Of a stretch of 64,000 nucleotides of DNA, positions 21,960 to 39,424 are shown piece by piece. This stretch comes from Chloroflexales bacterium ZM16-3 (GTDB lineage Bacteria > Chloroflexota > Chloroflexia > Chloroflexales > Chloroflexaceae), in NCBI GenBank assembly GCA_004138175.2, contig RYFE02000005.1, positions 1-64,000 of the forward strand, in the 5' to 3' direction. The notes under the pieces are model-generated. The model was not told the DNA's origin. It was given only the letters and a program-made list of their open reading frames with translations, and ran no database searches. The position numbers were made by a program, and so were the translations under genes. Position 1 is the stretch's first letter; each line of letters begins with the position of its first letter.

Positions 21960-23225
21960 CTACGGTTTCGGCGCGGCCACGGCCGGCGTCGACGTAGGTG
22001 GCGATGTGGTCACAGCGGTTGGGGCCACCGTTAAGCTCGGGAGCGGAGTGACGGTGACACGCACGGGCGTAGGCGTGTTGGTGGGCTGCGGGGCGGGTGT
22101 CCCCCATCCAAACCCCATCGCTCCGACCAAGACGACACATAGCACCACCAAGGTTGCTGCCGCAGTCCCGATCTGACGCATAATGTTGGGCGGACGGGGG
22201 CCGCGCAGCTTGGCGGGCAGATTCCGCTCAGGTACCTCGTCGAGTCGCGCGATCACCTCGGCTGCTGTCGGACGATTCGCTGGGACGGGGTCAATCATCG
22301 CCATCACAAGCGCGCACAGTGGTTCAGATAGATGTGGGGCTTTCTCTTGAAGCTGGGATAGAGGAACAGAGCGCGTCCGATTGAACTCATCGGTGACACG
22401 CCCGGTCGGCACTGCGGCGCGTCCGGCCAGTAGCTCATAGAACATAACCCCCAGGCTGTAGATATCGGGTGGGGTGTCGATCCCTTTAGGGGTTGGGCCT
22501 CCGTGTCGCTCGGGGGGGCGATAGCGCGGCTGCCCCAGCTGCTCACGATTTCGCGTGTACCGAGTTGAGTCAGCAGCTGCGAAATCGACGACCACGCATT
22601 CGGGCATTGTCGGGATCGGCCAGCCCAGCGGTCGACGGAGCAGCACATTGGTTGGCGCAATATCGTGATGGACGATCTCCGCAACCGTATGGAGGTGATG
22701 GAGCGCTTCTGCCACCTGCCGCGCGATCAGCACAGCGACGCCGGTTGGGAGTGCCTCATCGCCATACCGCCGCATCAGATCGCGAACCGAGCCGCCTGCC
22801 TCATAGTTCAGAATGAGGCAGGGGTAATTCTCCTGTAGCCCGCCCTCATCGTCTTTAAATGTATCGAAGCACAGCCCCGGGCGGCGACCGCGCTGCGGTG
22901 ATATGTCGGGCGGGATCTTAAAGAGCTGAATGACTCGCGGGTGAAGAATACCTGGGTTGCTCAGGAAGGTGTGCTCATCACGCAGGTTGTCGATGCTCGC
23001 CGGGTGCGGGATTTTGATCACACACAGGTGATATGCGGCGACCCGCTCTGGAGTCAGGCGCTGCTTGAGCAGACGGGGCATCTGCTCGGCTGGAGGTTGC
23101 CCCTCGCGCCACAGGCGCCCAATATAGACACGGCCCTGACCACCCTCGAAGATCGGCATCAGGATCTCATACTCACGAATGCGGTGTCCCGGCGGCAGCT
23201 TTGGGATGAGGAGTGGTTTGCTCAT
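21960..23225 (-). CDS. Atypical Ser/Thr protein kinase, C-terminal membrane anchor
   Basis: A 421-residue kinase-fold protein: glycine loop FEGGQGRVYIGRL, CVIKIP lysine, catalytic loop VHHDIAPTNVL, metal site VVVDFAAAD, and RPPERHGG in the activation region. Compared with canonical kinases HRD is HHD, the catalytic-loop lysine is Ala (D-I-A-P-T-N), and DFG is DFA. The catalytic Asp and Asn remain, so activity is possible but not certain. A single helix at about residues 350-370 (TLVVLCVVLVGAMGFGWG) and a Thr/Pro-rich tail follow. The ATG overlaps the stop of the upstream VWA-FHA gene. Confidence 0.87.
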   Translation of the reverse strand: MSKPLLIPKLPPGHRIREYEILMPIFEGGQGRVYIGRLWREGQPPAEQMPRLLKQRLTPERVAAYHLCVIKIPHPASIDNLRDEHTFLSNPGILHPRVIQLFKIPPDISPQRGRRPGLCFDTFKDDEGGLQENYPCLILNYEAGGSVRDLMRRYGDEALPTGVAVLIARQVAEALHHLHTVAEIVHHDIAPTNVLLRRPLGWPIPTMPECVVVDFAAADSTRYTRNREQLGQPRYRPPERHGGPTPKGIDTPPDIYSLGVMFYELLAGRAAVPTGRVTDEFNRTRSVPLSQLQEKAPHLSEPLCALVMAMIDPVPANRPTAAEVIARLDEVPERNLPAKLRGPRPPNIMRQIGTAAATLVVLCVVLVGAMGFGWGTPAPQPTNTPTPVRVTVTPLPSLTVAPTAVTTSPPTSTPAVAAPKP

Positions 23226-25171
23226 GATGTGATCTCACAGAATACGCGCAGCTTAACCTCTGAGCTTAGCCAGAATACGTCACCCGACGCGAGCTGTTTG
23301 CGGTCGCCAGGGGCCATTGCCGCCTTCTCTGGGCCAAAAAAGGTGCCTTGGCTCGAATCACCTGCGATCAGGGTTGGCCCGCTGTTCAACAGTTCGATCC
23401 GTGCGTGATCGCGTGAGACTTGCTGATGTCGTAGTGGAATATCGGGCGTGCGCACGGTTGTCACGCGGCCAAGGTCGTAGTTGCGCTGGCTCTGCTTGAG
23501 CTCGATCCGCTGGGCCGTGTCGCCTGCCACCACCTCTACATACCAGCGCGTATGGCGCTCCAGAACTACGGTTCGCCGATCATGAGGGTCAAAGAGGGCT
23601 GTCCGTTCATCATCGGGTACCGCCAGGCGTCCGGTTACATCATCAGGGCTGTATGGTGCAGTTGCCTCATCGTCATTACTCGTGACGCGGGCCGTCATGT
23701 CATCATCGATCACAGGCGCAGGTGCCGCAGTCGGTCTTGGCTGCTGGCGGCGTCGCAACTGCCAGACGGCACCGGCTGCCCCGACCACAAGCACCACCCC
23801 TCCACCGATCATCAGCGGGAGAAACAGTCCGCTGAGACCCTGCGAGCTGGTTACGGCGGCAATCTCTATCTGCTGCGGCTGGCTACGGCTAACTTGATCC
23901 TGGGCATCCTTAACGGCGGCGATAAGCTCGTAGCTGCCCGATGGGAATCGCTGCTGAAATCCTGGGTCATTCGTGTCCAGCACATAGCGGAAGTCTGGCC
24001 CCTCGGTCACTGGGTCGGCGATGGGGAGCCCGTTGAGCAGATACTCGACCTGGGTGATCGGTGCCTGCTGGAAATCGACGCGGGTTGCCATCTGGACCGT
24101 GCCCTGGAACTCAGGGCTAGAGGTGATCAGGCTCACTACGGGCGGCAGCGCTGGGATATCGAGCGAGGCGGTCCCGTTGATAATTCCGACACTCACGGTG
24201 AGATTGGCTGGCCCCGACGCGATTCCCGTTGCGGAGAACCGCAGCGTTGTCATGTTGCTGCGGCGTAGCACGCTCGCGTACTGGTCGAATATCTGACGCT
24301 TGAGATCGGGGGAAGGCAGCTGTCCATCAACAACCACCGGTGTAACAGTGCCAACATCGGCCAGCGATTGAAGCCCCGTCAGCGCGGTCGGGTCACTCGC
24401 AAAGCCGTAGATCAGCAGATGGACGGGATGCCCTTTGGATTCTGCGGCGGCGAGCGCGTTGTGGATGGCGCTCGTATCGAACTCTTTATTGGGATCACCG
24501 GCGGCGAAGACAACAAGTGTGCGCGGCTGCTCCGGCGCAGCCTGATCCAGCCGCGACAGCGCCTGGATGATCGCTTCGTCAAGCGGGTATGGCCCAGCGC
24601 TGGATTCCTCAGTTGGCAACTGCGGATCAAACCGCACTTGAGGATTTGATCGGGTCAGCGTGTTCGCGATCGCTCCGAGGTCATTCGTCAACTCATGGGC
24701 GACCGTCACCGTCTCGGTGAGGATCATCAGCCCCGCGCGTTGATCAGCACTCTGGAGCTGACTCACAAGGTCGCTCACCATCGGCTGCATCAGCTGGAAA
24801 CGTGTTGCGTAGACGGCTCCGCGCTCGCCCATGCGGCTGCTCAGATCTGTCACCAGCATAACGGCACCAGGCACTTGGGTTTGCCGACGCTCAACACCGG
24901 GAACGGTCTTCCCCTCAAAGCTGACTACAAGGTCGGGCTGCGCCTGGGACGGAGACGGTGGAGCCTGTAGGGCGGCGAACTCAATGGTCGTCTCGATGGT
25001 GGGGAACTGTGAGAAATCAGTTCGTACAATGCGCAGTTGAGCGGTTCCCTGGGCCATGGCGCTAACCTGGGGAGATAGCAGTGTGCCGATGAGGATGGCA
25101 ACAAACAGCAGCAGCGCCCGATGGCTAGTGCGATGACGATGGACGTGTTTTGTTAGGGGAAGTTGTGACAT
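23222..25171 (-). CDS. VWA-TM-FHA protein (second copy)
   Basis: A 649-residue exported protein. An N-terminal hydrophobic segment (about 20-40) precedes a von Willebrand A-like domain with MLVTDLSSRMGERG where a MIDAS would be; the D-L-S-S-R variant keeps DxSxR-like oxygen ligands only partly. A membrane helix lies at about 445-468 (FLPLMIGGGVVLVVGAAGA), followed by an acidic, Thr-rich linker and a C-terminal FHA domain with VSRDHARIE and QGTFFG. The FHA part would be cytoplasmic and bind phosphothreonine. I start at ATG 25171, 8 bp after the previous stop with AGGA between; an upstream in-frame extension to 25309 overlaps that gene and looks non-coding. Confidence 0.85.
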   Translation of the reverse strand: MSQLPLTKHVHRHRTSHRALLLFVAILIGTLLSPQVSAMAQGTAQLRIVRTDFSQFPTIETTIEFAALQAPPSPSQAQPDLVVSFEGKTVPGVERRQTQVPGAVMLVTDLSSRMGERGAVYATRFQLMQPMVSDLVSQLQSADQRAGLMILTETVTVAHELTNDLGAIANTLTRSNPQVRFDPQLPTEESSAGPYPLDEAIIQALSRLDQAAPEQPRTLVVFAAGDPNKEFDTSAIHNALAAAESKGHPVHLLIYGFASDPTALTGLQSLADVGTVTPVVVDGQLPSPDLKRQIFDQYASVLRRSNMTTLRFSATGIASGPANLTVSVGIINGTASLDIPALPPVVSLITSSPEFQGTVQMATRVDFQQAPITQVEYLLNGLPIADPVTEGPDFRYVLDTNDPGFQQRFPSGSYELIAAVKDAQDQVSRSQPQQIEIAAVTSSQGLSGLFLPLMIGGGVVLVVGAAGAVWQLRRRQQPRPTAAPAPVIDDDMTARVTSNDDEATAPYSPDDVTGRLAVPDDERTALFDPHDRRTVVLERHTRWYVEVVAGDTAQRIELKQSQRNYDLGRVTTVRTPDIPLRHQQVSRDHARIELLNSGPTLIAGDSSQGTFFGPEKAAMAPGDRKQLASGDVFWLSSEVKLRVFCEITS

Positions 25172-25178
25172 TGGAGTC

Positions 25179-27428
25179 CTATGTCGTCTGTGGGATAATC
25201 TCGATCTCCGTATTCGGCCCGAGGCGAATCCTTGTCGGCCCATCCAGCACCTGTGGGGTTTGTGGTTCGATCTTGCGCTGGTTGATAAAAGTTCCGTGTC
25301 CACTGCCAAGATCGGTCAGGTTGAGCACGCCGTTGTGGAGGTTTAGCTCAATGTGTTTCCGCGACACCTGCTTGTCCCCGATGATCAGCAGATCCCCCGC
25401 GCGACCGATCGTACTTGGGAAGGAGGTCACCAGCTGTTCTGGTGGCAGATTGCCAGCCAGCGTGCGCAGCACCCGCACGCGGGCGCGGCTGACCTGAGCG
25501 GATGTCCGATTCCTTCCGCCTACGGAGGCGTCCTCTGAATCAAACCGCACCGTCAAGCCCTCCTTATCTACGACAGTTGTTGCCTTCTGTGGCGCAGAGG
25601 GGGCTGCGGGTGGAATCGGGGAGGCTGACGTATCGCGGATTGGGCGAGGTGCTGGGAGCGTGGTGGGCTTCGCCTTCTGCTGTTTGTAGTACACATAGGC
25701 GCTCCCTCCAGTAATGATCACGGCCAGAAGGATGAGCGCAATCATTGGCCACCGGTTGGGCCCCGCTGGTGGATTATAGGGGAATTGTCTTTCCGCTTTA
25801 GATGATGTCGCGCCAAGATCGAGGGTGAGCCGTAGCGTGTAATCACCAGCCGCACTATCTAGCAGTGCTTGCGGTAGATCTCGCACAATCTGTCGGTCTT
25901 CAGGCAGGGTAATCGGATCAAACTTCGCGATCTGGTTACCATTATGATCAATGATCTCACCACTAACCAATGGCTTGCTCTGTCCAATCCCCGTGATCTT
26001 CAGGCTCGTCAGCAGTTTGCCGGTATCGTATTTTGGTGTGACTTCAATGATCTCGAAGTTCACATTCGGCTTGTGGGTGATACATCTCTCGACGAGTAAT
26101 TCCGCCGTCTGGCCACTTATCGTCTCAGTTGGCTGCTTGATAGCAGACCCATCTGGCCCCCTCGCCCTGATGTTAAAGCAATATTCCTCACCAGGCGTAA
26201 ACTTATCTGCTGGGATAGAGATGGTCATTGGCAGGAGCGTGTCGAAGGTCTGGGTAATCGGGATCGAGATCGGATCAAGCAGGAGGCCACCGGTGCTCTT
26301 TTCGAGAACACTCACCTCGATCTTGGCGATTGTCTGGGGATTACTGATCTCTATCGGCAGCTGCCAGTGATCATCACTGTCACTATACCGAGGCTCGCGC
26401 ACAACAATGTTCGGCGCCGGGGCATAGTCGCGGCTAGAGCTGAAGGTGAAGGTTCCGGAGAGCATCTGCGCGAGTTTGTCGCTCGAAACCATAACCGTGC
26501 CACGGTTTTCGCCTTTAGCAGCGCTCACCCGTGCGCGAACCACCCACTGCGCATTGATACCGGCCATAATCGTCTTGAACTGCGCATCGATCTGGTTGAC
26601 ATCGCCGAAGGCAGGGAAGCCCATCGTGTTATTGGCCAGCGCTTTCAGGCTCTCCTGATCGACATTTGCGCAGTCAGCCGAATTACAGAGCCCAATGGTG
26701 TGAATAGGCGTGTGGTATTTCAGCGCCTCAGCCTCGACTGCCGCTTGGTCGAATGTGCTACAAGATTGGTTGTCATTGCCCGTCTCGTCACGCCCATCAG
26801 TAAACAGAATCATTGCCCGCCGATCATGCTTCTGGACAACCTGAACCTCCCGATTACCAAGCGCTTGGTAAGCGGCGTTGTAGAGGCATGTCATACCGCC
26901 TGGCTGTGCCTTAATGCCGCCGATCACCTGCTTGACCGTCTCGCGATTATCCTGATTGGCAATCAGTGGGGTGAATTGCTGCCCGAGGTCAACCTTGTTA
27001 AAGGCAAAGACACTGAATGCGGCCCCAGCCGGGGCGTCGTCAACCGACTTTTGGGCCGCCGCCAACACCCGCTCCATCGAGTCGATCATGCTCCCGCTGG
27101 TGTCGATCAGCAGAATCAGCGAGATAGGCGTTTTGGGGGTCTCGACCTTGGCCTGCTGCGGTGCGGTGCTTAGCCCGGTCTGCATCTGGATCTGCGCCGT
27201 TTCATTGATCGACGCAGTATCAGGCGGCACAAAGTGGCCCTGCCGGTCGCGCAGCGTGAAGTAGATATCCACATCCACGCCGTCGGCCTGCTCGGTGGCG
27301 ACCGTATTGATCGTCACGAGCGTCCAGTCGTTGCTCTGGGCGTTGATCTGGGGGGCGGAGGGGAGCAGCAGGCCAACGGCAATCAGGATCAGCATCCAGT
27401 AGGGGCGCATGGCTCTTCTCATGATCAT
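25179..27428 (-). CDS. VWA-TM-FHA protein (first copy)
   Basis: A 749-residue protein with signal peptide (about residues 8-30), a VWA domain with an intact MIDAS (LLIDTSGSMIDS near residue 105; FTDGRDETG further on), a beta-rich region, a membrane helix near residue 560 (MIALILLAVIITGGSAYVYY) and a C-terminal FHA domain (TIGRAGDLLIIGD, VSRKHIELN, GSGHGTFIN). The topology puts the adhesive VWA domain outside and the phosphopeptide-binding FHA inside. Start could be 27428, 27422 or 27410; none has a strong Shine-Dalgarno. Same plan as its downstream neighbour, so a duplicated pair. Confidence 0.88.
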   Translation of the reverse strand: MIMRRAMRPYWMLILIAVGLLLPSAPQINAQSNDWTLVTINTVATEQADGVDVDIYFTLRDRQGHFVPPDTASINETAQIQMQTGLSTAPQQAKVETPKTPISLILLIDTSGSMIDSMERVLAAAQKSVDDAPAGAAFSVFAFNKVDLGQQFTPLIANQDNRETVKQVIGGIKAQPGGMTCLYNAAYQALGNREVQVVQKHDRRAMILFTDGRDETGNDNQSCSTFDQAAVEAEALKYHTPIHTIGLCNSADCANVDQESLKALANNTMGFPAFGDVNQIDAQFKTIMAGINAQWVVRARVSAAKGENRGTVMVSSDKLAQMLSGTFTFSSSRDYAPAPNIVVREPRYSDSDDHWQLPIEISNPQTIAKIEVSVLEKSTGGLLLDPISIPITQTFDTLLPMTISIPADKFTPGEEYCFNIRARGPDGSAIKQPTETISGQTAELLVERCITHKPNVNFEIIEVTPKYDTGKLLTSLKITGIGQSKPLVSGEIIDHNGNQIAKFDPITLPEDRQIVRDLPQALLDSAAGDYTLRLTLDLGATSSKAERQFPYNPPAGPNRWPMIALILLAVIITGGSAYVYYKQQKAKPTTLPAPRPIRDTSASPIPPAAPSAPQKATTVVDKEGLTVRFDSEDASVGGRNRTSAQVSRARVRVLRTLAGNLPPEQLVTSFPSTIGRAGDLLIIGDKQVSRKHIELNLHNGVLNLTDLGSGHGTFINQRKIEPQTPQVLDGPTRIRLGPNTEIEIIPQTT

Positions 27429-27526: not shown

Positions 27527-28156
27527 TCATCCGTTGCGCTGAAGCACATGGAGCTGTATCTGGCTAAACTCCAGCACAATCATATCATTTGGCTGAATCT
27601 GGTGGCGACGGTTGCCGGTCAGCGGGATCTCACCGCCTGCGGTTCGCAGCACAACCGGGTTGTCAGCCAGGCACTCGAATACATATTTCCCGCCCTGGTA
27701 CGTGATCCGGGCGTGTCGCCGCGACACACGCTCGCTGTGCGGTAGTCCATTTAGGTTCACGGCTAGCAGCGCCTCGTCGGGCAGGTTCGAGTCCGAGCGG
27801 CCGATCAGGGCGGGGGACCAGTGAAGGGGAAAGACCTTCCCGCTCTTCGGCTCGCGCAGGTACAGCGGCGCGGGAAGCGCGGTGGCCTGTGGCGGGATCT
27901 GCGGGATACGCTCGGCGAGCACAACCCGTGTCTCGCTCCCTAGCTGCGACCCAATAGGCGTATCGTCAATCAGCGGTGTGCCATTGCCGCGCAATAGATG
28001 GTAGCCGCTTGGGTTAAGGCTCAGGTAAGGCAGGTCATCGCCAAACTCGGCGAGGATGGCGGCGATCAGCTCAACTGGCTTGAGCTTCGGCTGCACTTCC
28101 GCCGCCTCATCACCCTTGTCGAAGATATTGATTGTGAGCCTCTGATAGGCGCTCAT
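27527..28156 (-). CDS. Ubiquitin-like (YukD/EsaB-like) plus FHA protein
   Basis: A 209-residue soluble protein. Residues about 1-85 (LTINIFDKGDEAAEVQPKLK onward to SETRVVLAER) look like a beta-grasp, ubiquitin-like domain of the YukD/EsaB kind: strand, strand, helix, L-x-L-N-P-S-G-Y, then a T-P-I-G-x-x-L turn. Residues about 95-209 are an FHA domain with LIGRSDSNLP, VSRRHARITYQ and a C-terminal L-E-F-S strand. The start overlaps the ATPase stop (ATGA). EsaB in Firmicutes T7SS is a small ubiquitin-like protein and EssC carries FHA domains; here both functions seem fused in one protein. The beta-grasp call is inference by pattern. Confidence 0.75.
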   Translation of the reverse strand: MSAYQRLTINIFDKGDEAAEVQPKLKPVELIAAILAEFGDDLPYLSLNPSGYHLLRGNGTPLIDDTPIGSQLGSETRVVLAERIPQIPPQATALPAPLYLREPKSGKVFPLHWSPALIGRSDSNLPDEALLAVNLNGLPHSERVSRRHARITYQGGKYVFECLADNPVVLRTAGGEIPLTGNRRHQIQPNDMIVLEFSQIQLHVLQRNG

Positions 28157-31100
28157 AGTGTGCTCCCGTCCGTCTCACGGACACAGTCATTGAGAGTACG
28201 GAGAAGGTCTTCTTCATGAAAGCTGGCGATCACACTCTCTGGAAGGCTCGGGTTCAGCTGGCGCAAAATATTCGGTATAAGGGCTATCAGTGCCACTCTG
28301 CTGTTCCACTCGGCCTCGTCTACGCTGCCGATCTGCTCGGCCAGGACGACGTTTGTGGTCACGCCGGACTGATGCAGCTTGGCTTGGGCGGCACGCAACA
28401 CCTCTTGAATTTGGATCACCTTCGGATCTGGGGATGTGCTCGGTAGCTTCACCTCTCGCGGCGGGTGCCTCCCCGCGATCTGGGCCACCCAGGTATCCAT
28501 CGTGTCGGCGATCTGCTGATCCTCGTCCGCGAGCGGGTCGATCAGGTACGGTGTAGCGACCTGCACGAGGTTGGTCTGGCCGGATTTCACGATATAGCCA
28601 CGGCCCAGGGGCAGCTCGCGCCCTTCCAGCCCGGCGGGGATTCGCATGACCTTCAGCGGCCCCAGGGCCGCCGCTGTGCGTAGCCCAAGGCCATAGCCAG
28701 AGGACTGAATGCGCCGTCGCAGATCGCTGACGGAGCTCTCAGCACTGGCGGCAATCACGATATGCAGTCCGTCGCGGCCATAGCGACGCGCCAGGCGAGC
28801 CAGTCGCTTGGCGCGCTGCGAGTTGGTCTCAAGCTCTTCGCTGAACTCATCAAAGTTGTCGATGAGAATAAAGATCTGGTGCGTGCTGGTGGCCAGATTA
28901 GGACACTCGGCATCCAGCCAGTCAATCAGCGCAGCAAACTCATCAGGCTCACTGATGGACTGCACAATATGCGGCAGCTTGCGCATGCTCAGCGCGCCGC
29001 CATAGTCAAAGAATCGGCTCTGGAGATCGATCAGCACCATGCTGATCGCATCTGGCGTATAGTGATCCGCCAAGTTCAGCGCCCAGCTGCGCAGCGTCGT
29101 TGTTTTGCCACTCAGGGGCGGCCCGATGATCGTGAAGTGTGGGCCTGAGCGGCGCAGGTTGATTTTCGCTGGCAGAAGATCTCCGCCGATCCCCAGCGCA
29201 ATCACCGCCGGATCAGCCGCGTCAGGGGCAGCCAATGTCGCGAGGGCAATCTCGCGCTCAAGTGTCTCGATCGGGTGGGCTCGGGTCCCGGCGTCTGGAA
29301 GATCGGCGAAGACAGCGGCCATCCGATCACCGATCACACGCAATTCTGCGGGTTCCGGTCGGATCTGGCGCCCATCAGGCGTGTAAATACCGATGGGCTG
29401 CGCAGCTTGGAGCAGAAGCGGTCGCCCAGCCACGCGGATATACCCGCGGCCGGGGGTGTCATCCAGCTCGACGGCCCCACGCCCAACAATATCCATATAG
29501 CGTTCCGCATTGGTCTGGCGGAAAGTGATCCGCTCGGCGAACAGGCCGTAGAGCCGGCTCATCATACTGCCGGGTGTGTTACCCGTAACGATCAGGCTGA
29601 TGCCAACGCCGAGCGCCCTTCGCGTCAGCGGTATCAGGCTGATCTCGATCAGTGACTCGTAGCTCTCTTGGAGGCTGGCGATATTGTCGATCATTACGAT
29701 GATCGCGGGCAAGGGCTGGGGCTCGCGCTGGTTGTACTCCATAAATGACGCGGCATCAGCCTTGGAGATCTGCTGCTGCCGCGCGTCCGCCTCGCGGCTC
29801 AGGTAGTCGATGAGTCGCCGCAGCCGCTCATCAAACAGCTCTTCGTCGGACGACAGCACCGCGCCCACATGGGGAAATTCCTCCACGCTGCGGAAGCTGT
29901 GGCCCGACATATCGATCACAAAGAGGTGCAGCTCGTCGGGCCGATGTGTTGCGGTTAGCCCGGCGATAATGGTGCGCAGCAGATTGGTCTTTCCGCTACC
30001 GCCATCGCCAAAGATGGCCATGTGTGATCGCCCAAGATCAAGGACAAGCGGGTCCTGGCGCGCGTTCTCTGGGTCGTCTATCAGGCCAACCGTCGCGCGC
30101 AGGGCCGTATCATGCCAGTCTACGCCTGGCCAGAGATCGGCAGTCGCGCCAGTCAGCCAGGCCGAAAGCTCGGGGCGGAGCGTTCGCGTCCCGCGCACCT
30201 CCTGCTTGTCCCAGTCGGGAAGCATCGTCTCAAGGCTAAATACGGTCGGGAGCATGCTCGGCCAGGGGCGTCGCACCGGCGTATCGCCATTGACAGACAT
30301 GGCGACATCAACCGCGTAGCTAAAGAGCTTGGGTGCCTCTGGCTCGGCCACCTGCTGCGCGCGGCCCGGCCAGCGCACCGCCACGTTGTCGGGCAGCGGC
30401 ACACGATCACCGCAGTAGGCCACCTGCACCAGCTCGATCCGCTCGCCACTGCCCTGAAGGAATCCCCGGCCGGGGAGCCCGCTCGGCAGACGGGCGGCAT
30501 CAGGGCGGCGCAGCAGCTCTCGGCTCGTGTCCGCATCCTCAACCCTGAGGCAGAGCCGCAGCTTGATGTTTGCCCGCATCTGGTCGGAGACCCCCTTGGG
30601 GCGCTGCGAAGCAAGGAGCAGATGAACCCCTTGCGCACGACCAACCCGCGTGATGCTCTCAAGCTGGAGCCGGTAGTCGGGGTTGCTGTCGATCATCTCG
30701 GCGTACTCATCAATGATGATCACCAGATGGGGGTATGGCTGGGCATGGTGGAATCCGCGCTTGCGGTAGTCCACAATATCCTTGGTGCCCGTGTCCGCAT
30801 TGAGCTGCTGGCGGCGGCGGATCTCGGCGCTAATTGCGCTGAACATGCGGTGAACCGCGCTGGTGTTCAGGTTGGTCACGATCTCGACACAGTGCGGCAG
30901 AGTCTCGAAGGGCTTAAAGGCACCGCCGCCCTTGTAGTCAACCAGCACAAAGTTCAGGATGGTTGGCGGGTAGACCAGAGCAAGTCCGATGATAAAGGTC
31001 ATCAGCAATTCGGACTTACCCGAGCCGGTGCCGCCGGCGACCATGCCATGCACCCCGTCTTTTTGGGCTTCCAGCGTCAGTTCACGCGGCAGGTTGCCGG

Positions 31101-34100
31101 AGGCAATGCCGAGTGGCACGCTGAGCCATTCGGGGCTGTTCGCCTGCACCTGCCAACTCTGGATGACTGCAGTATGCAGCTGTCCGGCGAAGGTTGTTGT
31201 ATCGGGTGAGATGGCAAAGCGCGTGGCCAGCACCTCACGGTAGAACACCGCTTTGGGCAATGCGCTGAGCCGCATCGGCATGGTGAATCGGAGACCCTGT
31301 TCGCCAATCACCGTGCGCATTCGTGCGCCGATTATGTCGATCTTGGTCTTCTCATCCTGGTCAGATCCGGGTGCCGGGGGCAGTAGCGCCACCTGGAAGG
31401 CCAACGCCTGCCGATCAATCGCCGTCGTTCCACGTCCCGGCAGATCATCGATCAGCTCCACCCGGCTCCCAACGATAGCCGCATAGTCATCGGCGTCAGA
31501 TAGGCGAAGGGCCATGCGCTCGGAGAAGAGCCCATAGAGCTTGCTGGAGATCGTGTTCAGACGATTGGCGGTGATGACGATATGCAGGCCGTAGGTCTTG
31601 CCCTGACGCGCCAGCGTGATGAACTGGTTGAGCGGGTTATCTTCGTCGTCATTCCCTTGGCGCTGGCTGAAGGAGTCGATAAACTCGGCGAGCGTGTCCA
31701 CTACCAGCACAATGGCAGGCAGCGGCTCGTGCGGGAAGCGGGCGTTATACTCATTCAGGTTCTGCGCGCCGATACCGCCGAAGCGCATTTTCCGCTCGTT
31801 GAGCGTCGCCGTCAGCTCACGCCAGAGCAGCTGCACCTGCTCCTCGTAGCCGCCTTCGTCTGGCACAATCACGGTGCCCACATGCGGCAGTGCGGTCAGC
31901 ATCTGGAGGCTGCGCCCGCCAAGATCGAGCAGATGGATGTGCAGCGCCTCGGGCGGATGGGTGGCCGCGAGGCTGAGGACCAGCGTGCGAATGAAGCTCG
32001 TCTTGCCCGTGCCCGAGGCACCGAACAGCACGGCGTGGCCGCGATTCAGGTTTACGGTGAGCGGCAACTGCTGCGCGCCCTGTGGATTATCTACCAGGCC
32101 GACCACCGGCTGGAGCGTGTTGGCACCCCAGATGAGCGTATCCCAGCGCCCACCGTTATACATCCAGGTGGCCAATTCCGGCACCAACACCACCCCGTCA
32201 TCCTTCCGGCGGGCCAGCATCGTCTGCGCTGCGCTCGGCAGGTCGGTGGCGCTGAACGGGTCGAAGGTCAGCGTTGGCGGCAGCGCTGGCGGCCACGGCG
32301 CGGCGGGCCGCTCGGCACCGTTCGCCCGCAGGAGGTTCTCCGTGGTGCGCACCACCACCTCGAAGAAGCGTGGCGGCTCACCGCGCTCGGTCAGCGGCTG
32401 GTTTGGCACCTTCTCGCCGGTGTACGCCACCTGAATCAGCTCGATCTGCTCATTGCCCACCTGGAGGTAGCCGCGCCCAGGCATGCCGCTCGGCAGGAAG
32501 GCTGCGTCGGGGCGACGCAGCATCTCGCGGCTGGTGTCAACACCCTCCACCCGCAGACAGATCCGCAGCTTGATATTCGCGCGCATCTGGTCGGTCACGC
32601 CAACGGGGCGCTGGGCGGCGAGCAAGAGGTTGACACCTAGCGAGCGCCCGATCCGCGTGATCCGATCCAGCTCGTCGCGGAAGTCTGGGCTGTCGCTGAT
32701 CATCTCGGCGTACTCGTCGATAATGATAAACAGGTGCGGGATCGGCCCGCTGTTGGGGCCATTGTTCAGATGGAGCCCTTTGGTGCGGTACTCCACCACA
32801 TCCTTCACCTGATGAAACCCGAGCACCCTGGCGCGACGATCCATCTCTGCGCCGATGGCGGTGAACATGCGGCGCACGGCGGTCTTATTCAGGTTCGTGA
32901 CCAAATCGACCACGTGCGGCAACGTGTGGAATGGCTCAAAGGCACCGCCGCCCTTGTAGTCAACCAGCACAAAGTTGAGCACGGTGGGGTCATAGCGCAT
33001 CGCCAAGCTGACGATCAGCGACATCAGCAGCTCGGACTTCCCGGAGCCGGTGCCGCCCGCGATCATCCCGTGAACGCCGTCCTTCGCCGCCTCCAGGGCC
33101 AGCGTGCGAATCTTATTGCCGGAGGTCACGCCGATCGCTGCGCTGAGCCAATCGGCGCGCTCAGGCTTTATGCTCGCCTCCCAGCCGTCGATGATCAGCC
33201 GGGCCAGCTTACTGCGGATCTCCGCATCGTCGCGTTCGTTCGTGCGGGCGAGGAGCGTGCGCAGGAGCATTGTCTTCGGCAGTGCCTCAATCTCGATCGG
33301 CAGCTGCGCTTTGCGTGTGGCGGGCCATGCCTGCACGGCGGCACGCAGCCGTGAGGTGAACAGCTCGATCACGGCGGCATCGGTGGTAGCAACCTGGATG
33401 CTCAGCGGGATCTGGTCGATCAGGCTATAGCCGCGACCGGGCAGATCGGCCACTTCGGCAACGTGTGAACCGAGCACATCGCGATAGTGGGAGGAGTCTG
33501 TTAAACGCAGGGCAAAGCGCTCGGTGAGGAATCCCGCAAGCTGGTTCGGAACCTGCATCGGTTGGCCGGCGGTGATCACCAGATGGACGCCGTACGGTCG
33601 GCACTGGCGAGCCAACGCAATCAGTCGATCAAGCCCACTCTCGGCGTTCTCTACCTGCCCGCCGAACGTCTCGACAAACTCAGTCAGGTTATCCAGCGCC
33701 AGCACAATTGCTGGCAGCGCCTTATCCGCATACCTGGCATTGTAGGAAAGCAGCGTATCTTCACGGGCATCGCCAAGCACTACCTTGCGCTGCTCGACGA
33801 TATCGCTAATCTCGCGGAGCAGCTGCTCGACGCGCTCACGATAACTGGCCTCAGCCTCATTTGGCGTAATGACGGCACCAACATGGGGGAGCTGGGACAA
33901 GGGCATCAGCGAGCGACCTCCGAGGTCGAGCACATACATGTGTAGCTGATCCGGCGGGTGCGAGGCGGCCAGGCTCGTCACAAGCGTGCGGATAAAGGTC
34001 GTCTTCCCCGAGCCTGGTGCCCCGTAGATCACGGTGTGTCCACGAGCAAGATCGACGGACAAGGGGTACTGACGCGCCGCAGCAGGCGCATCCACGAGAC

Positions 34101-36768
34101 CGACAACAGGCCGAAGCGCATAGTCCTCCCAAAGCAACGGCTGATCCCACCCGCTACCATCGGTCAGCCAGTGTACCATCGGCGGGCTGAGGCTGAGGGA
34201 GGCATCAGGCGCATGCCCGAGGGTGAGCAGCTCTTGGCGGTCGAGGTAGATCGCGGAGGTGATAGGGGCAATGCCTGGCCCACGAGACTCCGTCAGCGGG
34301 TCGGTGAGCGCCAGCTTTGTCGGCAGCGGGCCGGGCCAGGGGGCGCGCTGCGGAACGACGCCGCGCGAATCGGCCAGAGCGCGCAGCGCCTCGATCACCT
34401 CAAGAAACACCGGGCGGGAGGGCAGTTCGGCGGGGGCAATGTTAGACGTAGCATGGCGTCCCCACAGCACCGGCGGCAGGTTCCGCTGACCAGCTGGCAC
34501 ATACAGCTCGCCGGCGTAGGCCACCTGAATCAGCTCGATCTCCTCATTGCCCACCTGAAGGTAGCCGCGCCCTGGGATATTGTTCGGCAGGTACGCGGCC
34601 TCGGTGCGGCGGAGCATCTCGCGGCTCTCACCCTGGCTCTCGACTCGCAGACAGATGCGGTATTTGATATTTGAGCGCATCTGGTCAGTCACACCGCTCG
34701 GGCGCTGGGCGGCCAGCAAGAGATGGACGCCGAGGGAGCGTCCGATCCGGGTAATCTGCTCAAGCTGGCTCTTCGCATCCGCCCGGTCGGCGATCATCTC
34801 GGCAAACTCATCAATGACAATGAAGAGGAACGGGTATGGTATCTGGGTGATGTGGAGGTTGCGTTTACGATACTCGACGATCGTATTCACTTTGGCGCTG
34901 GCATTGAGGCGCTGGCGGCGGTCAAGTTCGGCGCGGATGGAGGTAAACATCCGCGTGACCGCATCGCCGTTCAGGTTGGTCACAATATCGACGCAGTGCG
35001 GCAGGTTGCGAAACGACTCGAAAGCACCACCGCCCTTAAAGTCCACCAGCACAAAATTCAGCGCGGTTGGGCTGTAGCTGGCGGCCATTCCGGCGATCAG
35101 TGCGATCAGCAGCTCGGATTTACCCGAGCCGGTGCTACCGGCAACCAGCCCATGGACACCGTCGCGGTTTGCCGAGAAGTTCAGGGCACGATCTTTATTC
35201 CCAGCCATCCGCCCGATCTTCGCCCGCAGCCATGAGGCGTTGCCCGCCTGCTCGCTCTTACTCCAAGCAGCTTGCGCATCTTTGACAAAGCCCTCGATTG
35301 TCGCATCGCTGCTAGATGTACCGTCATTGCTCCGCATCAGCTCCAGAAACGAGACGCTCTTCGCCAGGCCACTGCCCTCGGTCTGCTGGAGCTTGAGTCC
35401 CGCCATAGCTGTGGCCAACTCGGTCATCTGATTCCCATCGCGGATCGTGTCGGCGTTTCCGAGCAGACGCAGCGAATTTAGCCCAACCTCGGCATAGCGA
35501 AGGACTGTCTGGTCACCAGCCCGCTCAACCTCAATAAGCGCAGTACAGCCGCCGGGTGCCTTGCTTCGCCGAGGGACAAGGAACAGAACCGCTGCGCCAA
35601 GGATCGCCCCCTCCGCAATCAGAATCCCCAGACCGGCATCAGTCAGCGCGATGCTATGGAGTGGGTGTTTCGGATCGTTAGCGGCGGCAAGCAGATCGAT
35701 CACAACCAGCAGTTGTGGCAGAGTCGGGTTCTCACCTGCCTGCTGCTCTGGGTCCTGAAGCCGAATCTTCCGCTGGGCCAGCACTCGTCGTAGACCTTCC
35801 GACCAGCGATCTAACGCGGTCCCTTGCTCCGGGTCAGACGACAGCTCATCTTTCGGATCATCAAGGAATACGATAGCGGTACTATCCTCGCCATTGCTCG
35901 CATGGGGAAGTTGTCGAACCCATGCCCAGTCTGCACGGTGGTCTGCCACGAGGAGGATTCGCATGTCAGAGGGCGCATGGAAGGCGGCGACGTGAGCGAT
36001 CATCGCGCGGGCCAGATCAGTAGCGGGGCCGGGATCTCCCGCAATTGCGAGCGCATGAGAAAAATGAGGTGGGGGCGGGCCCTTCACCTCTTCATCGTCC
36101 TCGGGCTTCGGCGGCGCGGGGCGGAGCATCACCGTCACCGGCATCGCGCTGACAAATTGCGAGTCTGCCGCAAGCTTAAGTGCATCACGTCGCAGCTGGC
36201 TGTTGCCATCAGATTCGGTAAGCGTGTAGACAACGGTTGATGGTAGCGTCGCAACCCCAAGGCGCACCATGCCAAAGTCGGGGTCGCCGACCCGCCGCTC
36301 CCAGAGGCGCACCACATCTGCTGCGGTGCCTGACGGCTTGCGCGCCACGGCCTGTGCGTGCCGCACCAGCGCAGCGGTGCCATCAGGGTCAGGGTAGTTG
36401 TACTGGGCAAAGCGGCGCTGAGCTTCCTGGGCCGCGCGCATATCGCGGTAGAGATCGAGCAGCTGACTGGCGTAGGCATCCCGCTCAGCAGCACGCTCAA
36501 CCTCTTCGCCACGGTAGGTGTAGATCGCAAATGCCGTTGACGCGATCACCGAGAGCGCCATTGGGATGAGCAATAAGGGGCTACGCCCGCTGCCACCAAG
36601 CGACGAGACCAGGATATACCCGATGATCGTCGTCAGCGGGAGCGCCACCTGCACCAGTCGACTCGTTGTGACCGCACGCTGATCTGGTGGCTTGGGGATC
36701 TCAATGCTACCGAACGGGAGGTCGGGCTGTATGCGTGGCGGGCGATCAGAGGCTATCTGGTTACTCAT
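28153..36768 (-). CDS. Giant FtsK/SpoIIIE-type ATPase, EssC/EccC-like, seven P-loop domains
   Basis: A 2,871-residue motor protein, about twice the usual EssC/EccC length. Two membrane helices lie at about 40-58 and 64-84. Walker A motifs are near residues 543 (GSTGSGKSE), 914 (GAPGSGKTT), 1236 (GGTGSGKSE), 1581 (GASGTGKTS), 1909 (GGTGSGKSE), 2252 (GDGGSGKTN) and 2547 (GPPLSGKTT). Domains 1, 3 and 5 are full FtsK-like copies with VDFKGGGAFE or VDYKGGGAF, a VIDEFAEM/IIDEYAEM Walker B, and AAQRP or ASQRP. Domains 2, 4, 6 and 7 lack the catalytic Glu (ALDNLTEF, VVDTLAEF, MIDNIASL, LIDNFDEF). Thus three active/degenerate pairs plus one terminal degenerate domain. It should drive export of the WXG100 proteins upstream. 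The start overlaps the pseudokinase stop (ATGA). Confidence 0.93.
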   Translation of the reverse strand: MSNQIASDRPPRIQPDLPFGSIEIPKPPDQRAVTTSRLVQVALPLTTIIGYILVSSLGGSGRSPLLLIPMALSVIASTAFAIYTYRGEEVERAAERDAYASQLLDLYRDMRAAQEAQRRFAQYNYPDPDGTAALVRHAQAVARKPSGTAADVVRLWERRVGDPDFGMVRLGVATLPSTVVYTLTESDGNSQLRRDALKLAADSQFVSAMPVTVMLRPAPPKPEDDEEVKGPPPPHFSHALAIAGDPGPATDLARAMIAHVAAFHAPSDMRILLVADHRADWAWVRQLPHASNGEDSTAIVFLDDPKDELSSDPEQGTALDRWSEGLRRVLAQRKIRLQDPEQQAGENPTLPQLLVVIDLLAAANDPKHPLHSIALTDAGLGILIAEGAILGAAVLFLVPRRSKAPGGCTALIEVERAGDQTVLRYAEVGLNSLRLLGNADTIRDGNQMTELATAMAGLKLQQTEGSGLAKSVSFLELMRSNDGTSSSDATIEGFVKDAQAAWSKSEQAGNASWLRAKIGRMAGNKDRALNFSANRDGVHGLVAGSTGSGKSELLIALIAGMAASYSPTALNFVLVDFKGGGAFESFRNLPHCVDIVTNLNGDAVTRMFTSIRAELDRRQRLNASAKVNTIVEYRKRNLHITQIPYPFLFIVIDEFAEMIADRADAKSQLEQITRIGRSLGVHLLLAAQRPSGVTDQMRSNIKYRICLRVESQGESREMLRRTEAAYLPNNIPGRGYLQVGNEEIELIQVAYAGELYVPAGQRNLPPVLWGRHATSNIAPAELPSRPVFLEVIEALRALADSRGVVPQRAPWPGPLPTKLALTDPLTESRGPGIAPITSAIYLDRQELLTLGHAPDASLSLSPPMVHWLTDGSGWDQPLLWEDYALRPVVGLVDAPAAARQYPLSVDLARGHTVIYGAPGSGKTTFIRTLVTSLAASHPPDQLHMYVLDLGGRSLMPLSQLPHVGAVITPNEAEASYRERVEQLLREISDIVEQRKVVLGDAREDTLLSYNARYADKALPAIVLALDNLTEFVETFGGQVENAESGLDRLIALARQCRPYGVHLVITAGQPMQVPNQLAGFLTERFALRLTDSSHYRDVLGSHVAEVADLPGRGYSLIDQIPLSIQVATTDAAVIELFTSRLRAAVQAWPATRKAQLPIEIEALPKTMLLRTLLARTNERDDAEIRSKLARLIIDGWEASIKPERADWLSAAIGVTSGNKIRTLALEAAKDGVHGMIAGGTGSGKSELLMSLIVSLAMRYDPTVLNFVLVDYKGGGAFEPFHTLPHVVDLVTNLNKTAVRRMFTAIGAEMDRRARVLGFHQVKDVVEYRTKGLHLNNGPNSGPIPHLFIIIDEYAEMISDSPDFRDELDRITRIGRSLGVNLLLAAQRPVGVTDQMRANIKLRICLRVEGVDTSREMLRRPDAAFLPSGMPGRGYLQVGNEQIELIQVAYTGEKVPNQPLTERGEPPRFFEVVVRTTENLLRANGAERPAAPWPPALPPTLTFDPFSATDLPSAAQTMLARRKDDGVVLVPELATWMYNGGRWDTLIWGANTLQPVVGLVDNPQGAQQLPLTVNLNRGHAVLFGASGTGKTSFIRTLVLSLAATHPPEALHIHLLDLGGRSLQMLTALPHVGTVIVPDEGGYEEQVQLLWRELTATLNERKMRFGGIGAQNLNEYNARFPHEPLPAIVLVVDTLAEFIDSFSQRQGNDDEDNPLNQFITLARQGKTYGLHIVITANRLNTISSKLYGLFSERMALRLSDADDYAAIVGSRVELIDDLPGRGTTAIDRQALAFQVALLPPAPGSDQDEKTKIDIIGARMRTVIGEQGLRFTMPMRLSALPKAVFYREVLATRFAISPDTTTFAGQLHTAVIQSWQVQANSPEWLSVPLGIASGNLPRELTLEAQKDGVHGMVAGGTGSGKSELLMTFIIGLALVYPPTILNFVLVDYKGGGAFKPFETLPHCVEIVTNLNTSAVHRMFSAISAEIRRRQQLNADTGTKDIVDYRKRGFHHAQPYPHLVIIIDEYAEMIDSNPDYRLQLESITRVGRAQGVHLLLASQRPKGVSDQMRANIKLRLCLRVEDADTSRELLRRPDAARLPSGLPGRGFLQGSGERIELVQVAYCGDRVPLPDNVAVRWPGRAQQVAEPEAPKLFSYAVDVAMSVNGDTPVRRPWPSMLPTVFSLETMLPDWDKQEVRGTRTLRPELSAWLTGATADLWPGVDWHDTALRATVGLIDDPENARQDPLVLDLGRSHMAIFGDGGSGKTNLLRTIIAGLTATHRPDELHLFVIDMSGHSFRSVEEFPHVGAVLSSDEELFDERLRRLIDYLSREADARQQQISKADAASFMEYNQREPQPLPAIIVMIDNIASLQESYESLIEISLIPLTRRALGVGISLIVTGNTPGSMMSRLYGLFAERITFRQTNAERYMDIVGRGAVELDDTPGRGYIRVAGRPLLLQAAQPIGIYTPDGRQIRPEPAELRVIGDRMAAVFADLPDAGTRAHPIETLEREIALATLAAPDAADPAVIALGIGGDLLPAKINLRRSGPHFTIIGPPLSGKTTTLRSWALNLADHYTPDAISMVLIDLQSRFFDYGGALSMRKLPHIVQSISEPDEFAALIDWLDAECPNLATSTHQIFILIDNFDEFSEELETNSQRAKRLARLARRYGRDGLHIVIAASAESSVSDLRRRIQSSGYGLGLRTAAALGPLKVMRIPAGLEGRELPLGRGYIVKSGQTNLVQVATPYLIDPLADEDQQIADTMDTWVAQIAGRHPPREVKLPSTSPDPKVIQIQEVLRAAQAKLHQSGVTTNVVLAEQIGSVDEAEWNSRVALIALIPNILRQLNPSLPESVIASFHEEDLLRTLNDCVRETDGSTL

Positions 36769-37901
36769 ACGAAGATTTCACGAACTGACAAGAGTAAGGC
36801 TATCAGGAAGGCAACGAGCAGTACAATTGCCGCAATGCGAAAGATTCGTGCTGGTGGGGGCCAACGGCTCGGGCGGACGACCGGGGTCATGCCAATCTCA
36901 GTTCCCTTGATCTCATCGACGATAGCCCGTGCGTCGATCGGGCGAGCCGACGGGTTGCGGGCGAGCATCTGGAGCGCGAGATTGGCAATCGGCTGGACAT
37001 CCGCGCGCATGAGCGGAGTGACCTGGCCAGCGATGATTCGCTGATAGATCGGCTCTGCGGAGATCTGGTTGCGGGAAAAGGGGGGCGTGCTAGCCAACAG
37101 CTCGTACAACACGAGGCCAAGTCCGTAGACATCCGTCTGTGTACCCGCGCCGACCCCGCCACCTACACGCGTGGGGCTTGCGAGTTCCGGCGCAGTACCA
37201 CCTGGGCGAACCGCGTCCCGGTACCAGTGTTCAACATAGGTGCGGTTATCGGTTGTTTGGCGCAAGGTCGTCGCCAACCCGAGATCCACCAGCGTCACGC
37301 GGGGAACACCCTGATCACCCGCAAAGTGGACAAGCACACTCTCTGGCCCAAGAGCGAGGTGAAGATGCTGTGCGCCATGCACAAGCGCAATCGCAGAAGC
37401 CAGCTCAATAGTGATCCAGCCGATGTGATCGATCCATAGCTGCGGGTGCTTCTTCAGCACATCCTGGAGCGGCTCGCCTGGGATATGAGCAAAGAGGGTA
37501 TAGGTCACGAGCTGGTCGCTAAGCATTGCCCGACCTACAAGGCGCGCCTGTGCATTGGCTCGTGTGTAGGGCGATACGAGCGTGGGGAGGACAGGGCGTT
37601 GGTTTGCGGTGGACTGAAGCTTCTGGAGCAACTCAGCCTCACGAATCAGCCGATGCTCGTTATCTTGGCCGGGGTGGGCCACTTTAAGAAACACCCGCTG
37701 CTGAAGGTGAATGGCCTCATAGATCACGGCGGAGCGCAGCACCACGAGCGGGCGAACGACCTCAACATCGCCGAGGCGGTCTCCATATGCGAGCACCATC
37801 GGTGCACGTTCAGCCTGACAGAACGGCTCCTGACAGAAGAGTGCACAGGATGGAGCAGTGCGATCACAGAGCAAACAGACCCGATCCACAAGATTCTCCA
37901 T
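36765..37901 (-). CDS. Membrane-anchored pseudokinase, EssB/YukC-like in plan
   Basis: A 378-residue kinase-fold protein. The N-terminus has a cysteine cluster (Cys 9, 12, 19, 23, 28) that may bind zinc. The kinase fold keeps the VFLKVAHP lysine and LVDLGLAT (DFG as DLG), but the catalytic loop is HLHLALGPESVL: the HRD aspartate and the following lysine are gone, so phosphotransfer is unlikely. A C-terminal helix at about 352-370 (IFRIAAIVLLVAFLIALLL) anchors it with almost nothing outside. Firmicute EssB/YukC is also a pseudokinase with one membrane helix, and sits beside EssC; position and plan agree here, though sequence homology to EssB cannot be shown by eye. Overlaps the ATPase start. 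Confidence 0.85.
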   Translation of the reverse strand: MENLVDRVCLLCDRTAPSCALFCQEPFCQAERAPMVLAYGDRLGDVEVVRPLVVLRSAVIYEAIHLQQRVFLKVAHPGQDNEHRLIREAELLQKLQSTANQRPVLPTLVSPYTRANAQARLVGRAMLSDQLVTYTLFAHIPGEPLQDVLKKHPQLWIDHIGWITIELASAIALVHGAQHLHLALGPESVLVHFAGDQGVPRVTLVDLGLATTLRQTTDNRTYVEHWYRDAVRPGGTAPELASPTRVGGGVGAGTQTDVYGLGLVLYELLASTPPFSRNQISAEPIYQRIIAGQVTPLMRADVQPIANLALQMLARNPSARPIDARAIVDEIKGTEIGMTPVVRPSRWPPPARIFRIAAIVLLVAFLIALLLSVREIFV

Positions 37902-37958
37902 CTCGCTGCGGAACCAGCTGCGTGGTTTTGTACGCCCGATGCAGAAAGACTCAATCTA

Positions 37959-38018
37959 CACCCACCATATGTTTCGGTTACGGCCGCACGCGCGTTAGCC
38001 TTAAACATATGGTGGGTG
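37959..38018 (-). promoter_or_regulatory. Long stem-loop between WXG100 genes and the pseudokinase gene
   Basis: Perfect 16-bp arms (cacccaccatatgttt at 37959-37974 and its complement at 38003-38018) enclose a 28-nt loop, in the 148-bp gap of an otherwise tightly packed run. There is no T-tract on the minus strand. It may act as an attenuator or stabilise the WXG100 mRNA 3' end. Confidence 0.65.
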
Positions 38019-38049
38019 AAGACAATTCTAGGAAGTACGCAGCAACCGT

Positions 38050-38349
38050 TTAATGAAAACGCGCCGCACCGAGCTCATCGCCGCGCTCAAACGCATCGAC
38101 TGAAGCGGTGAGATCCTGGCTGATCTCGCCACACTTCTCTGCCACATTCTCGATATATGGCTTGACCGTATCGATGAAGTAGGCCACGGCGGCCCCACCG
38201 ACTGCACCAATGAATGCCGTTGCCTTGAGCACGTTGCTCAGCGCAGTGAGCACTTTGACGACCTGCGTCAAGGTCTCACTGATCTGAGAGAACTTTTTTG
38301 AGAAATCCCTGACCACAGGGACATCCATGTAGACGCCATCCACAGCCAT
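38050..38349 (-). CDS. WXG100-size protein with central hydrophobic helix
   Basis: A 99-residue helical protein in the WXG100 array: MAVDGVYMDVPVVRDFSKKF, heptad-like helix SQISETLTQVVKVLTALSNV, then FIGAVGGAAVAYFIDTVKPY, and a charged C-terminal helix. The W-x-G turn is absent; a hydrophobic IGAVGGAAVAYF segment sits where the turn would be. It is therefore a divergent Esx-like protein or a membrane-active relative. GAGGAG precedes the ATG. The last gene of the array before the stem-loop. Confidence 0.65.
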   Translation of the reverse strand: MAVDGVYMDVPVVRDFSKKFSQISETLTQVVKVLTALSNVLKATAFIGAVGGAAVAYFIDTVKPYIENVAEKCGEISQDLTASVDAFERGDELGAARFH

Positions 38350-38409: not shown

Positions 38410-38748
38410 CTAGTAGAAGCTAAAGGCGTCGAACAGCCGGGACTTCACCAAGCGCTCAACTTCTTCATCGGCTCGCTCAATCACGTCGCGGGCATACTCT
38501 AGGTTCGTGCAGGTCGTAGAGATATGATTCTGGATGGTGGTGACATTCGGAATCAAAAGGGAAGAGACTTCCTCGACAAACGCGTCAGCGCCTTTGCCTT
38601 GCCAAGCCCCGCCGACAACCTGCTGAATCATCGCCTTCAGCGGGTTCATGGCTGCCTGCTCAACCGTATTCAGCTGATCCGTCAGGCCTTTTAGCACGCT
38701 ATCCAACACTGCCCGCGCCAAGCGGAGCAGAATTTCCGTTACGGACAT
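38410..38748 (-). CDS. WXG100 (ESAT-6-like) protein
   Basis: A 112-residue helical hairpin protein with the hallmark turn GGAWQGKGADAFVEEV (W-Q-G) at about residues 47-62. WXG100 proteins are exported as dimers by type VII systems and serve as substrates and co-export partners. A C-terminal region with DVIERADEEVERLVKSRLF carries a possible YxxxD/E-like export signal variant only loosely. AGAGGAG lies before the ATG. Flanked by two further family-size genes on the same strand. Confidence 0.85.
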   Translation of the reverse strand: MSVTEILLRLARAVLDSVLKGLTDQLNTVEQAAMNPLKAMIQQVVGGAWQGKGADAFVEEVSSLLIPNVTTIQNHISTTCTNLEYARDVIERADEEVERLVKSRLFDAFSFY

Positions 38749-38779: not shown

Positions 38780-39082
38780 CTAACTGCCGAACTGGCTACG
38801 AGAGGTGTCATCGGCCTCACGCATGTACTCCACCGCAGCCTTGACATCCTCTTCCAGCTCCTGAAACTTCTCGATCAGCTTGCTCAGCGACGGAGTAAGC
38901 TTGCTGCGGATTGCATCCACAAAAGCAGTGCCACCGCGTCCGAGCAGCGCACCCTCTTCCATCATATTAGCGATGCTCTGCATCTCCTGCACCACATCCT
39001 GTAGATCCTCGCCGCCCTGATGGAATGTCCTGGACATCTGCTCGGCCAGGCCATAGTCTAGTTTGATCTCGTCATGTGCCAT
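38780..39082 (-). CDS. WXG100-like protein, LxG variant
   Basis: A 100-residue protein with WXG100 layout: two amphipathic helices around EGALLGRGGTAFVDAI, where the Trp of WxG is Leu (L-L-G). The C-terminal YMREADDTSRSQFGS resembles the Y-x-x-x-D type VII export signal (Y86-M-R-E-A-D). GGAG precedes the ATG. By size, sequence plan and position it belongs with the proteins encoded on either side. Confidence 0.8.
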   Translation of the reverse strand: MAHDEIKLDYGLAEQMSRTFHQGGEDLQDVVQEMQSIANMMEEGALLGRGGTAFVDAIRSKLTPSLSKLIEKFQELEEDVKAAVEYMREADDTSRSQFGS

Positions 39083-39124: not shown

Positions 39125-39424
39125 TTAATTGCGGAACCGAGAGCTCGCCTCTTCTTCGGCGTGCTTCATCTTCTGTACGATCTCGCGCACCGTTCGGCTC
39201 GCCTCTTCGAGTACCTCGTGCAGCCGATGGGCGGCCGGGAGCACTTCACTATTCATCTCTGCGAAGAAGCTATCGGCACCACGACCGAGCCACCCGCCAT
39301 CTTCGAGTGGGCCCATACTGCGCTGAACCTGCTGGAGTGTGTGTCTGGCAGCATGCGATTGATTGGCGAACCGGCTTGCAATTTGCTCGAGCTGATCATA
39401 ATCAGCCCGAATTTCTTCAGCCAC
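39125..39424 (-). CDS. WXG100 (ESAT-6-like) protein, first gene of the run
   Basis: A 99-residue protein with the canonical turn GGWLGRGADSFFAEM (W-L-G) at about residues 43-57 between two helices, and a charged C-terminus HAEEEASSRFRN. The start is a GTG at 39424 with AGGAGG at 39435-39430, 5 nt upstream; an ATG 2 bp upstream is out of frame. It is closest to its neighbour at 38780 in the C-terminal region (E-E-A/DD-T-S-S/R-R-F). The likely first gene of the 20-kb run. Confidence 0.85.
   Translation of the reverse strand: MAEEIRADYDQLEQIASRFANQSHAARHTLQQVQRSMGPLEDGGWLGRGADSFFAEMNSEVLPAAHRLHEVLEEASRTVREIVQKMKHAEEEASSRFRN

Follow-up and report, generated by a model that had tools for sequence, protein, structure and literature searches.

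The 64,000-nucleotide stretch of Chloroflexales bacterium ZM16-3 DNA analysed here (contig RYFE02000005.1; hereafter the window) contains an open reading frame in which a first-pass annotation, made from the letters alone, had seen a motor like EccC or EssC with seven P-loop domains. Motors of type VII secretion systems (T7SS) have been described with four NTPase domains, D0 to D3 (PMC11217815, PMC10765036). The locus raises the question of whether so long a chain is a genuine T7SS motor, how its extra domains arose and how they might work together.

Layout of the motor chain

The gene lies on the minus strand, starts with ATG and encodes 2,871 amino acids. Its parts are given below with window coordinates, residue numbers and the evidence for each assignment.

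28153-36768, minus strand: seven-domain motor, very probably of a T7SS, with the layout TM2-D0-(D1-D2)x3-D3, 2,871 aa (Pfam, NCBIfam, alignment with T. curvata EccC, domain tree)
35389-36747, minus strand: RPPRIQP motif, two transmembrane (TM) helices, stalk and degenerate D0, residues 8-460 (VIA-align structure matches)
34495-35253, minus strand: domain 1, D1-type, catalytic site intact, residues 506-758 (motifs, alignment, domain tree)
33364-34137, minus strand: domain 2, D2-type, Walker B DN, residues 878-1135 (motifs, domain tree)
32401-33171, minus strand: domain 3, D1-type, catalytic site intact, residues 1200-1456 (motifs, alignment, domain tree)
31369-32136, minus strand: domain 4, D2-type, Walker B DT, residues 1545-1800 (motifs, domain tree)
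30391-31149, minus strand: domain 5, D1-type, catalytic site intact, residues 1874-2126 (motifs, alignment, domain tree)
29377-30123, minus strand: domain 6, D2-type, Walker B DN, residues 2216-2464 (motifs, domain tree)
28534-29238, minus strand: domain 7, D3-type, residues 2511-2745 (alignment with T. curvata EccC, domain tree)

The seven Walker A motifs that the first-pass annotation had counted start at residues 544, 916, 1238, 1583, 1912, 2254 and 2549, and seven stretches of the chain matched PF01580 (summed E 7e-168), which bears the count out. The motifs also agreed with its description of three domains with an intact DE Walker B, each followed by a domain lacking the catalytic Glu, and of a degenerate seventh domain at the end. 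Domains 1, 3 and 5 carry VD(F/Y)KGGGAF, and the Walker B of domain 7 is DN, without the catalytic Glu.

The chain opens with RPPRIQP, followed by helices at residues 34-57 and 64-124. VIA-align matched the TM-D0 part (residues 8-460) to 6umm_E of ESX-3 (Z 26.9, 313 residues aligned) and to 7b9s_2 of the ESX-5 hexameric pore (Z 26.1). Because these residues fold like the TM-DUF(D0) part of EccC from ESX-3 and ESX-5, D0 was taken as an eighth, degenerate P-loop-type domain, giving eight such domains in the chain, seven of them with Walker A.

The assignment to the EccC/EssC family came from profiles, alignment and tree. The motor scored far above the NCBIfam cut-offs for EssC (TIGR03928), TIGR03924 and EccCa/EccCb; these scores are inflated, because the sums run over the repeats of the motor. 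Residues 1881-2738 were collinear with residues 277-1143 of T. curvata EccC (D1-D2-D3). In the careful domain tree, which held 86 domains after the most divergent proteins (L018, C55 and L101) had been left out (the quick tree held 99), domains 1, 3 and 5 formed one D1-like clade (support 99/98), domains 2, 4 and 6 one D2-like clade (99/93), and domain 7 fell in a D3-like clade (100/99), which identifies the degenerate last domain as EccC D3. The matching domains from T. curvata EccC and from three-domain motors fell in the same clades, and no domain was placed with an unrelated FtsK clade. Since the domains group as EccC D1, D2 and D3, their order is TM-D0-(D1-D2)x3-D3, and we regard this architecture as almost certain. 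By its sequence the motor is a member of the EccC/EssC family, as first proposed, and very likely serves a type VII-like secretion system.

The pattern of active sites is shared by the homologues. Walker A and the DE Walker B were kept in domains 1, 3 and 5 of all 23 non-redundant seven-domain proteins, in which the VD(Y/F)KGG, RxCLRVE and LRR motifs of these domains were almost invariant. The catalytic Glu was absent from domains 2, 4, 6 and 7 in all variants listed, the motif there being mostly DN. Mean identity within a chain was 64-72% among domains 1, 3 and 5 and 43-52% among domains 2, 4 and 6; across proteins it was 57-59% for D2-type versus 74-77% for D1-type domains, so the D2 type evolves faster. 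The linker-2 motif PWP..LP follows domains 1, 3 and 5 in 22, 19 and 19 of the 23 proteins, respectively; as it stands after every D1, the repeated module is D1, linker 2 and D2. The linkers between D1- and D2-type domains measured 64-134 residues, and those from D2 to D1 had medians of 76-77 residues versus 52 from D2 to D3, about 25 longer. A Walker A of the form GASGWGKTT, with Trp before GK, was common in domains 2 and 4 of most homologues and is absent from the window copy.

Occurrence and origin of the repeats

Repeat structure alone would speak for a recent local duplication or for an assembly artefact, the latter being one of the ways in which, according to the first-pass annotation, its reading could fail. 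The three DNA repeats in the motor gene, spaced 2.0-2.1 kb apart, are only 63-75% identical, the copies of each domain position group across classes in the tree, and the architecture occurs in independent genomes, including the complete genome of Herpetosiphon aurantiacus (CP000875). The searches yielded 37 complete proteins with seven domains, of which 23 are non-redundant, counting the window copy, and because of this number and the divergence of the repeats a chance or assembly duplicate can be set aside, its probability being negligible.

The count of P-loops in relatives gave a layout that recurs across Chloroflexota. Relatives had open frames of 2,897-2,993 aa with 40-54% identity, and in public genomes the layout was seen in Herpetosiphon, Candidatus Oscillochloris fontis, Anaerolineae, Caldilineae and Chloroheliaceae. 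In a phylum-wide sample, 10 of 301 genomes had a motor frame of about 2,870-2,970 aa, and the other matches listed were at most 1,655 aa long. No complete five-domain motor was seen among the proteins collected. The genome of the window itself also encodes, on another contig, an ordinary EccC of 1,358 residues. Beyond Chloroflexota, genomes were searched by pattern and plasmids by tblastn, and independent expansions there are possible; the best 15 of the 721 plasmid records resemble ordinary-length EccC or FtsK-type proteins.

Some further loci were noted in this survey. A strongly diverged seven-domain motor (40% identity) in the same operon is encoded in a genome (G004) of the window organism's genus (L018/L112). 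A MAG labelled Melainabacteria (L036) and a Chloroflexi MAG (L030) have T7SS loci of identical-looking layout and scores, probably through a binning error. In L062, a contig-bound frame, a low-scoring D3-like domain seemingly precedes D2- and D1-like ones, which may reflect misassembly.

The origin of the triplication was approached with two trees. In a careful tree of the TM-D0 part only, which by design excludes the repeats, the seven-domain motors formed one clade (100/100) inside paraphyletic three-domain motors; the topology therefore indicates a single origin from a three-domain ancestor, a motor of the same conserved operon. In the careful domain tree, domain 1 stood outside a group of domains 3 and 5 (100/99), and domain 6 outside a group of domains 2 and 4 (100/98). 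Because of these pairings we infer two steps from the sequences, in which the D1-D2 pair would have been doubled first and an internal D2-D1 unit afterwards. The tandem duplication of an active and an inactive domain suggested in the first reading is thus supported by the trees. The linkers, tested for the crossover of the second duplication, gave a divided result, with agreement in 18 of 21 proteins on the D1 side and in only 10 of 21 on the D2 side.

The surrounding operon and known type VII systems

The neighbouring genes, all on the minus strand, are listed in the direction of transcription.

39125-39424, minus strand: WXG100 protein a, GTG start, 99 aa (PF06013, 4e-13)
38780-39082, minus strand: WXG100 protein b, 100 aa (PF06013, 4e-9)
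38410-38748, minus strand: WXG100-like protein c, 112 aa (PF06013, 5.5e-5, clearly below the cut-off; position conserved)
38050-38349, minus strand: WXG100-like protein d, 99 aa (PF06013, 4.7e-6, just below the cut-off; position conserved)
36765-37901, minus strand: Kin1, membrane-anchored pseudokinase, 378 aa, TM near residue 348 (PF00069, 4e-14)
27527-28156, minus strand: fusion of a YukD-like part and FHA, 209 aa (PF00498, 5.6e-5; PF08817 in family members)
25179-27428, minus strand: VWA and FHA protein, 749 aa (profile matches; kept in most related loci)
23222-25309, minus strand: second VWA and FHA protein, 695 aa, TTG start, the true start probably further in (profile matches)
21960-23225, minus strand: Kin2, Ser/Thr kinase, HxD motif, one TM (profile match, sequence)
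20590-21939, minus strand: PP2C-type phosphatase (PF13672, 1.5e-12; NF033484, 1.5e-39)
19488-20597, minus strand: TPR-like, lipoprotein-like protein ending the minus-strand run (weak TPR match, sequence)

The motor gene shares 4 nt with Kin1 upstream and another 4 nt with the YukD-FHA gene downstream, overlaps of the kind seen where operon genes are translationally coupled. Of the four adjacent WXG100-type genes, a and b scored above the PF06013 cut-off. The conserved order starts with these four genes, continues with Kin1, the motor and the FHA protein, and ends with VWA-FHA proteins and with proteins whose N-terminus is a WXG100 domain and whose C-termini vary; it was kept in most seven-domain and most three-domain loci that were long enough, with Kin1 sometimes on the opposite strand. 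The N-terminus of the FHA protein is YukD-like, PF08817 matching 11 of 16 family members (best 4e-6) and not the window copy; a search of solved-structure sequences with a YukD-like profile found nothing. Kin1 was classed as a membrane pseudokinase because it ends in a TM helix region and because the Asp of the catalytic loop is missing, both from the window copy and from all homologue variants listed. Kin2 keeps the catalytic-loop Asp, is apparently an active kinase judging from its sequence, and is not conserved at the same place in related loci.

Proteins that begin with a WXG100 domain and differ in their C-termini are encoded at many related loci. Two proteins with such an N-terminal domain are encoded in the window's genome away from the motor (C86:9864 region, L116; C83:1063-2319, L117), one with a glycine-zipper-like C-terminus and the other with a lipase-like GHSQGG; both are candidate substrates of the motor's system.

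Several other features of the region were recorded. Between WXG100 gene d and Kin1 (37955-38022) lies a 20-nt inverted repeat, 95% complementary, with a 28-nt loop (-39 kcal/mol, z -5.6, no T-run after it), which is unique in the genome and may serve in attenuation or transcript processing to adjust the expression of WXG100 relative to the motor. GC content within 10000-40000 was 0.53-0.64 over the whole T7SS region versus about 0.66-0.70 in the flanks, an island-like pattern. The gene at 13610-16372 encodes an N-terminal Ser/Thr kinase, a TM helix and a C-terminal part weakly like six-hairpin glycosidases, which resembles the protein at 17766-19484; a 466-aa protein adjoining this gene is kept beside it in L033. 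A multihaem cytochrome c3/c7-like protein is encoded next to the T7SS region (9229-10464).

With the EccC/EssC family (T. curvata EccC 4nh0, ESX-3, ESX-5) the motor shares two TM helices, D0, an active D1, the position of linker 2, D2 and D3 without the catalytic Glu, and a collinear C-terminal half. It differs in having D1-linker-D2 three times, in its length (about 2,870-3,060 aa versus about 1,300-1,600) and in its three catalytic sites per chain. The three-domain motors of Chloroflexota (for example L066, L068, L077, L088 and L089) have the same gene order and about 36-42% identity in the best segment, but one D1-D2 pair.

The closest parts list is that of T7SSc of Bacillota (PMC11217815): WXG100, a YukD-like protein, a motor without FHA, a kinase-fold TM protein, vWA and a PPM phosphatase. 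WXG100, YukD-like, vWA, PPM phosphatase and kinase-fold genes of this set are present here. However, the T7SSc motor has four NTPase domains, its TscD keeps the kinase site that Kin1 lacks, the fusion of YukD to FHA is a feature of the present locus, and the phylum is a different one. T7SSb of Bacillota likewise has a TM-anchored pseudokinase, EssB/YukC, beside the motor, whereas Kin1 has just a short stretch after its C-terminal TM; PF10140 found no EssB/YukC in the window's genome and matched the B. subtilis control. The N-terminal FHA of T7SSb motors is absent from this chain, which opens with RPPRIQP and TM, and FHA is on a separate protein. The T7SSa component EccD (TIGR03920) gave no match here, nor in the control genomes.

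A 2024 survey of T7SSa-j, covering Actinomycetota and Bacillota, reported four NTPase domains in the motor of every new subtype (PMC11217815); compared with those four (D0-D3), the present motor has D0 plus seven. WXG100 proteins, T7SS-linked toxins and predicted ESX systems of Chloroflexota have already been mentioned (PMC3935865, PMC4010439, PMC3482391). In the open literature (most subscription papers being outside its scope) no motor exceeding four NTPase domains was found described, and no paper on a longer EccC or a Herpetosiphon T7SS. The EccC/EssC family itself is known; what appears to be new is the tripled D1-D2 of an EccC-type motor with three catalytic sites retained.

A possible mode of action

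The best explanation as a whole, to which we give a probability of about 0.55, is a pore-anchored motor with three restrained engine units in a longer stack. ESX-5 has six EccC around its pore (PMC11217815), and the EccC D1 active site requires the Arg finger of a neighbouring D1 (PMC6986878). The present chains would gather round a membrane pore like EccC, most likely as six, and their ATPase beads would line up in a string or stack longer than that of EccC, in which D1 hydrolyses ATP on three tiers (up to 18 sites) where EccC has one. According to Rosenberg's work of 2015, D1 of EccC is reportedly restrained by D2 via linker 2, and the WXG100 signal bound by D3. Each D1 here may similarly be kept inactive by its own D2 until a WXG100 or WXG100-fusion substrate docks at D3, and the substrate would then be driven out by several stages in series. 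The neighbouring pseudokinase, YukD-FHA, VWA-FHA, kinase and PP2C proteins probably assemble the machine and control it via phosphorylation.

An AlphaFold model of domains 3-4-5 (mean pLDDT 80.6, pTM 0.66) had the FtsK-type fold and overlaid EccC D1-D2-D3 over 792 residues (Z 30.2, 6.7 Å rmsd; Foldseek TM 0.64-0.71), an arrangement that may echo 4nh0 from the training data. The overlay suggests that the third bead, domain 5, would continue the string at the position of D3. A single TM-D0 per chain together with this model favours six chains and a longer stack, a part of the reading whose chances we put at about even.

A hexameric pore could also run with one D1 tier working at once, the additional D1-D2 pairs mainly extending the reach into the cytosol or adding surfaces for binding and regulation when substrates are larger or more than one. 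The many different WXG100-fusion proteins in related loci and the faster evolution of the D2 type fit such a role, but idle copies should decay, and the conservation of all three sites in every one of the 23 proteins makes this account rather unlikely.

Less probable still is the pseudo-hexameric assembly first suggested, in which two chains would contribute three D1 each to one six-membered ring and the chains at the pore would not number six. Three intact D1 per chain times two does give six, and the linkers between D1- and D2-type domains leave freedom for it. The high identity of D1 copies within a chain also fits equivalent positions in one ring and counts against a stack. Against the two-chain ring stand the single TM-D0 per chain, which matches the EccC part of hexameric pores, the predicted placement of domains 4-5, which follows the EccC D2-D3 string, and the modest excess of the D2-to-D1 over the D2-to-D3 linkers. 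The FtsK-type fold would also suit a motor of the wider FtsK/HerA group that translocates DNA or drives conjugation and has no part in protein export, but such a motor is highly improbable given domains that group with EccC D1, D2 and D3 in order, a TM-D0 of EccC type, and WXG100 and YukD-like genes in the operon.

How many ATPase tiers a T7SS motor requires, and what the pairing of D1 with D2 does, are open questions in the mycobacterial and staphylococcal systems. The natural triplication kept D1-linker-D2 as one unit and left TM-D0 and D3 single, and in this way evolution itself gives evidence for D1-linker-D2 as the power module and for D0 and D3 as the fixed ends. A further implication is a widespread but little-described T7SS of Chloroflexota, in which three- and seven-domain motors in the same operon offer a ready-made comparison.
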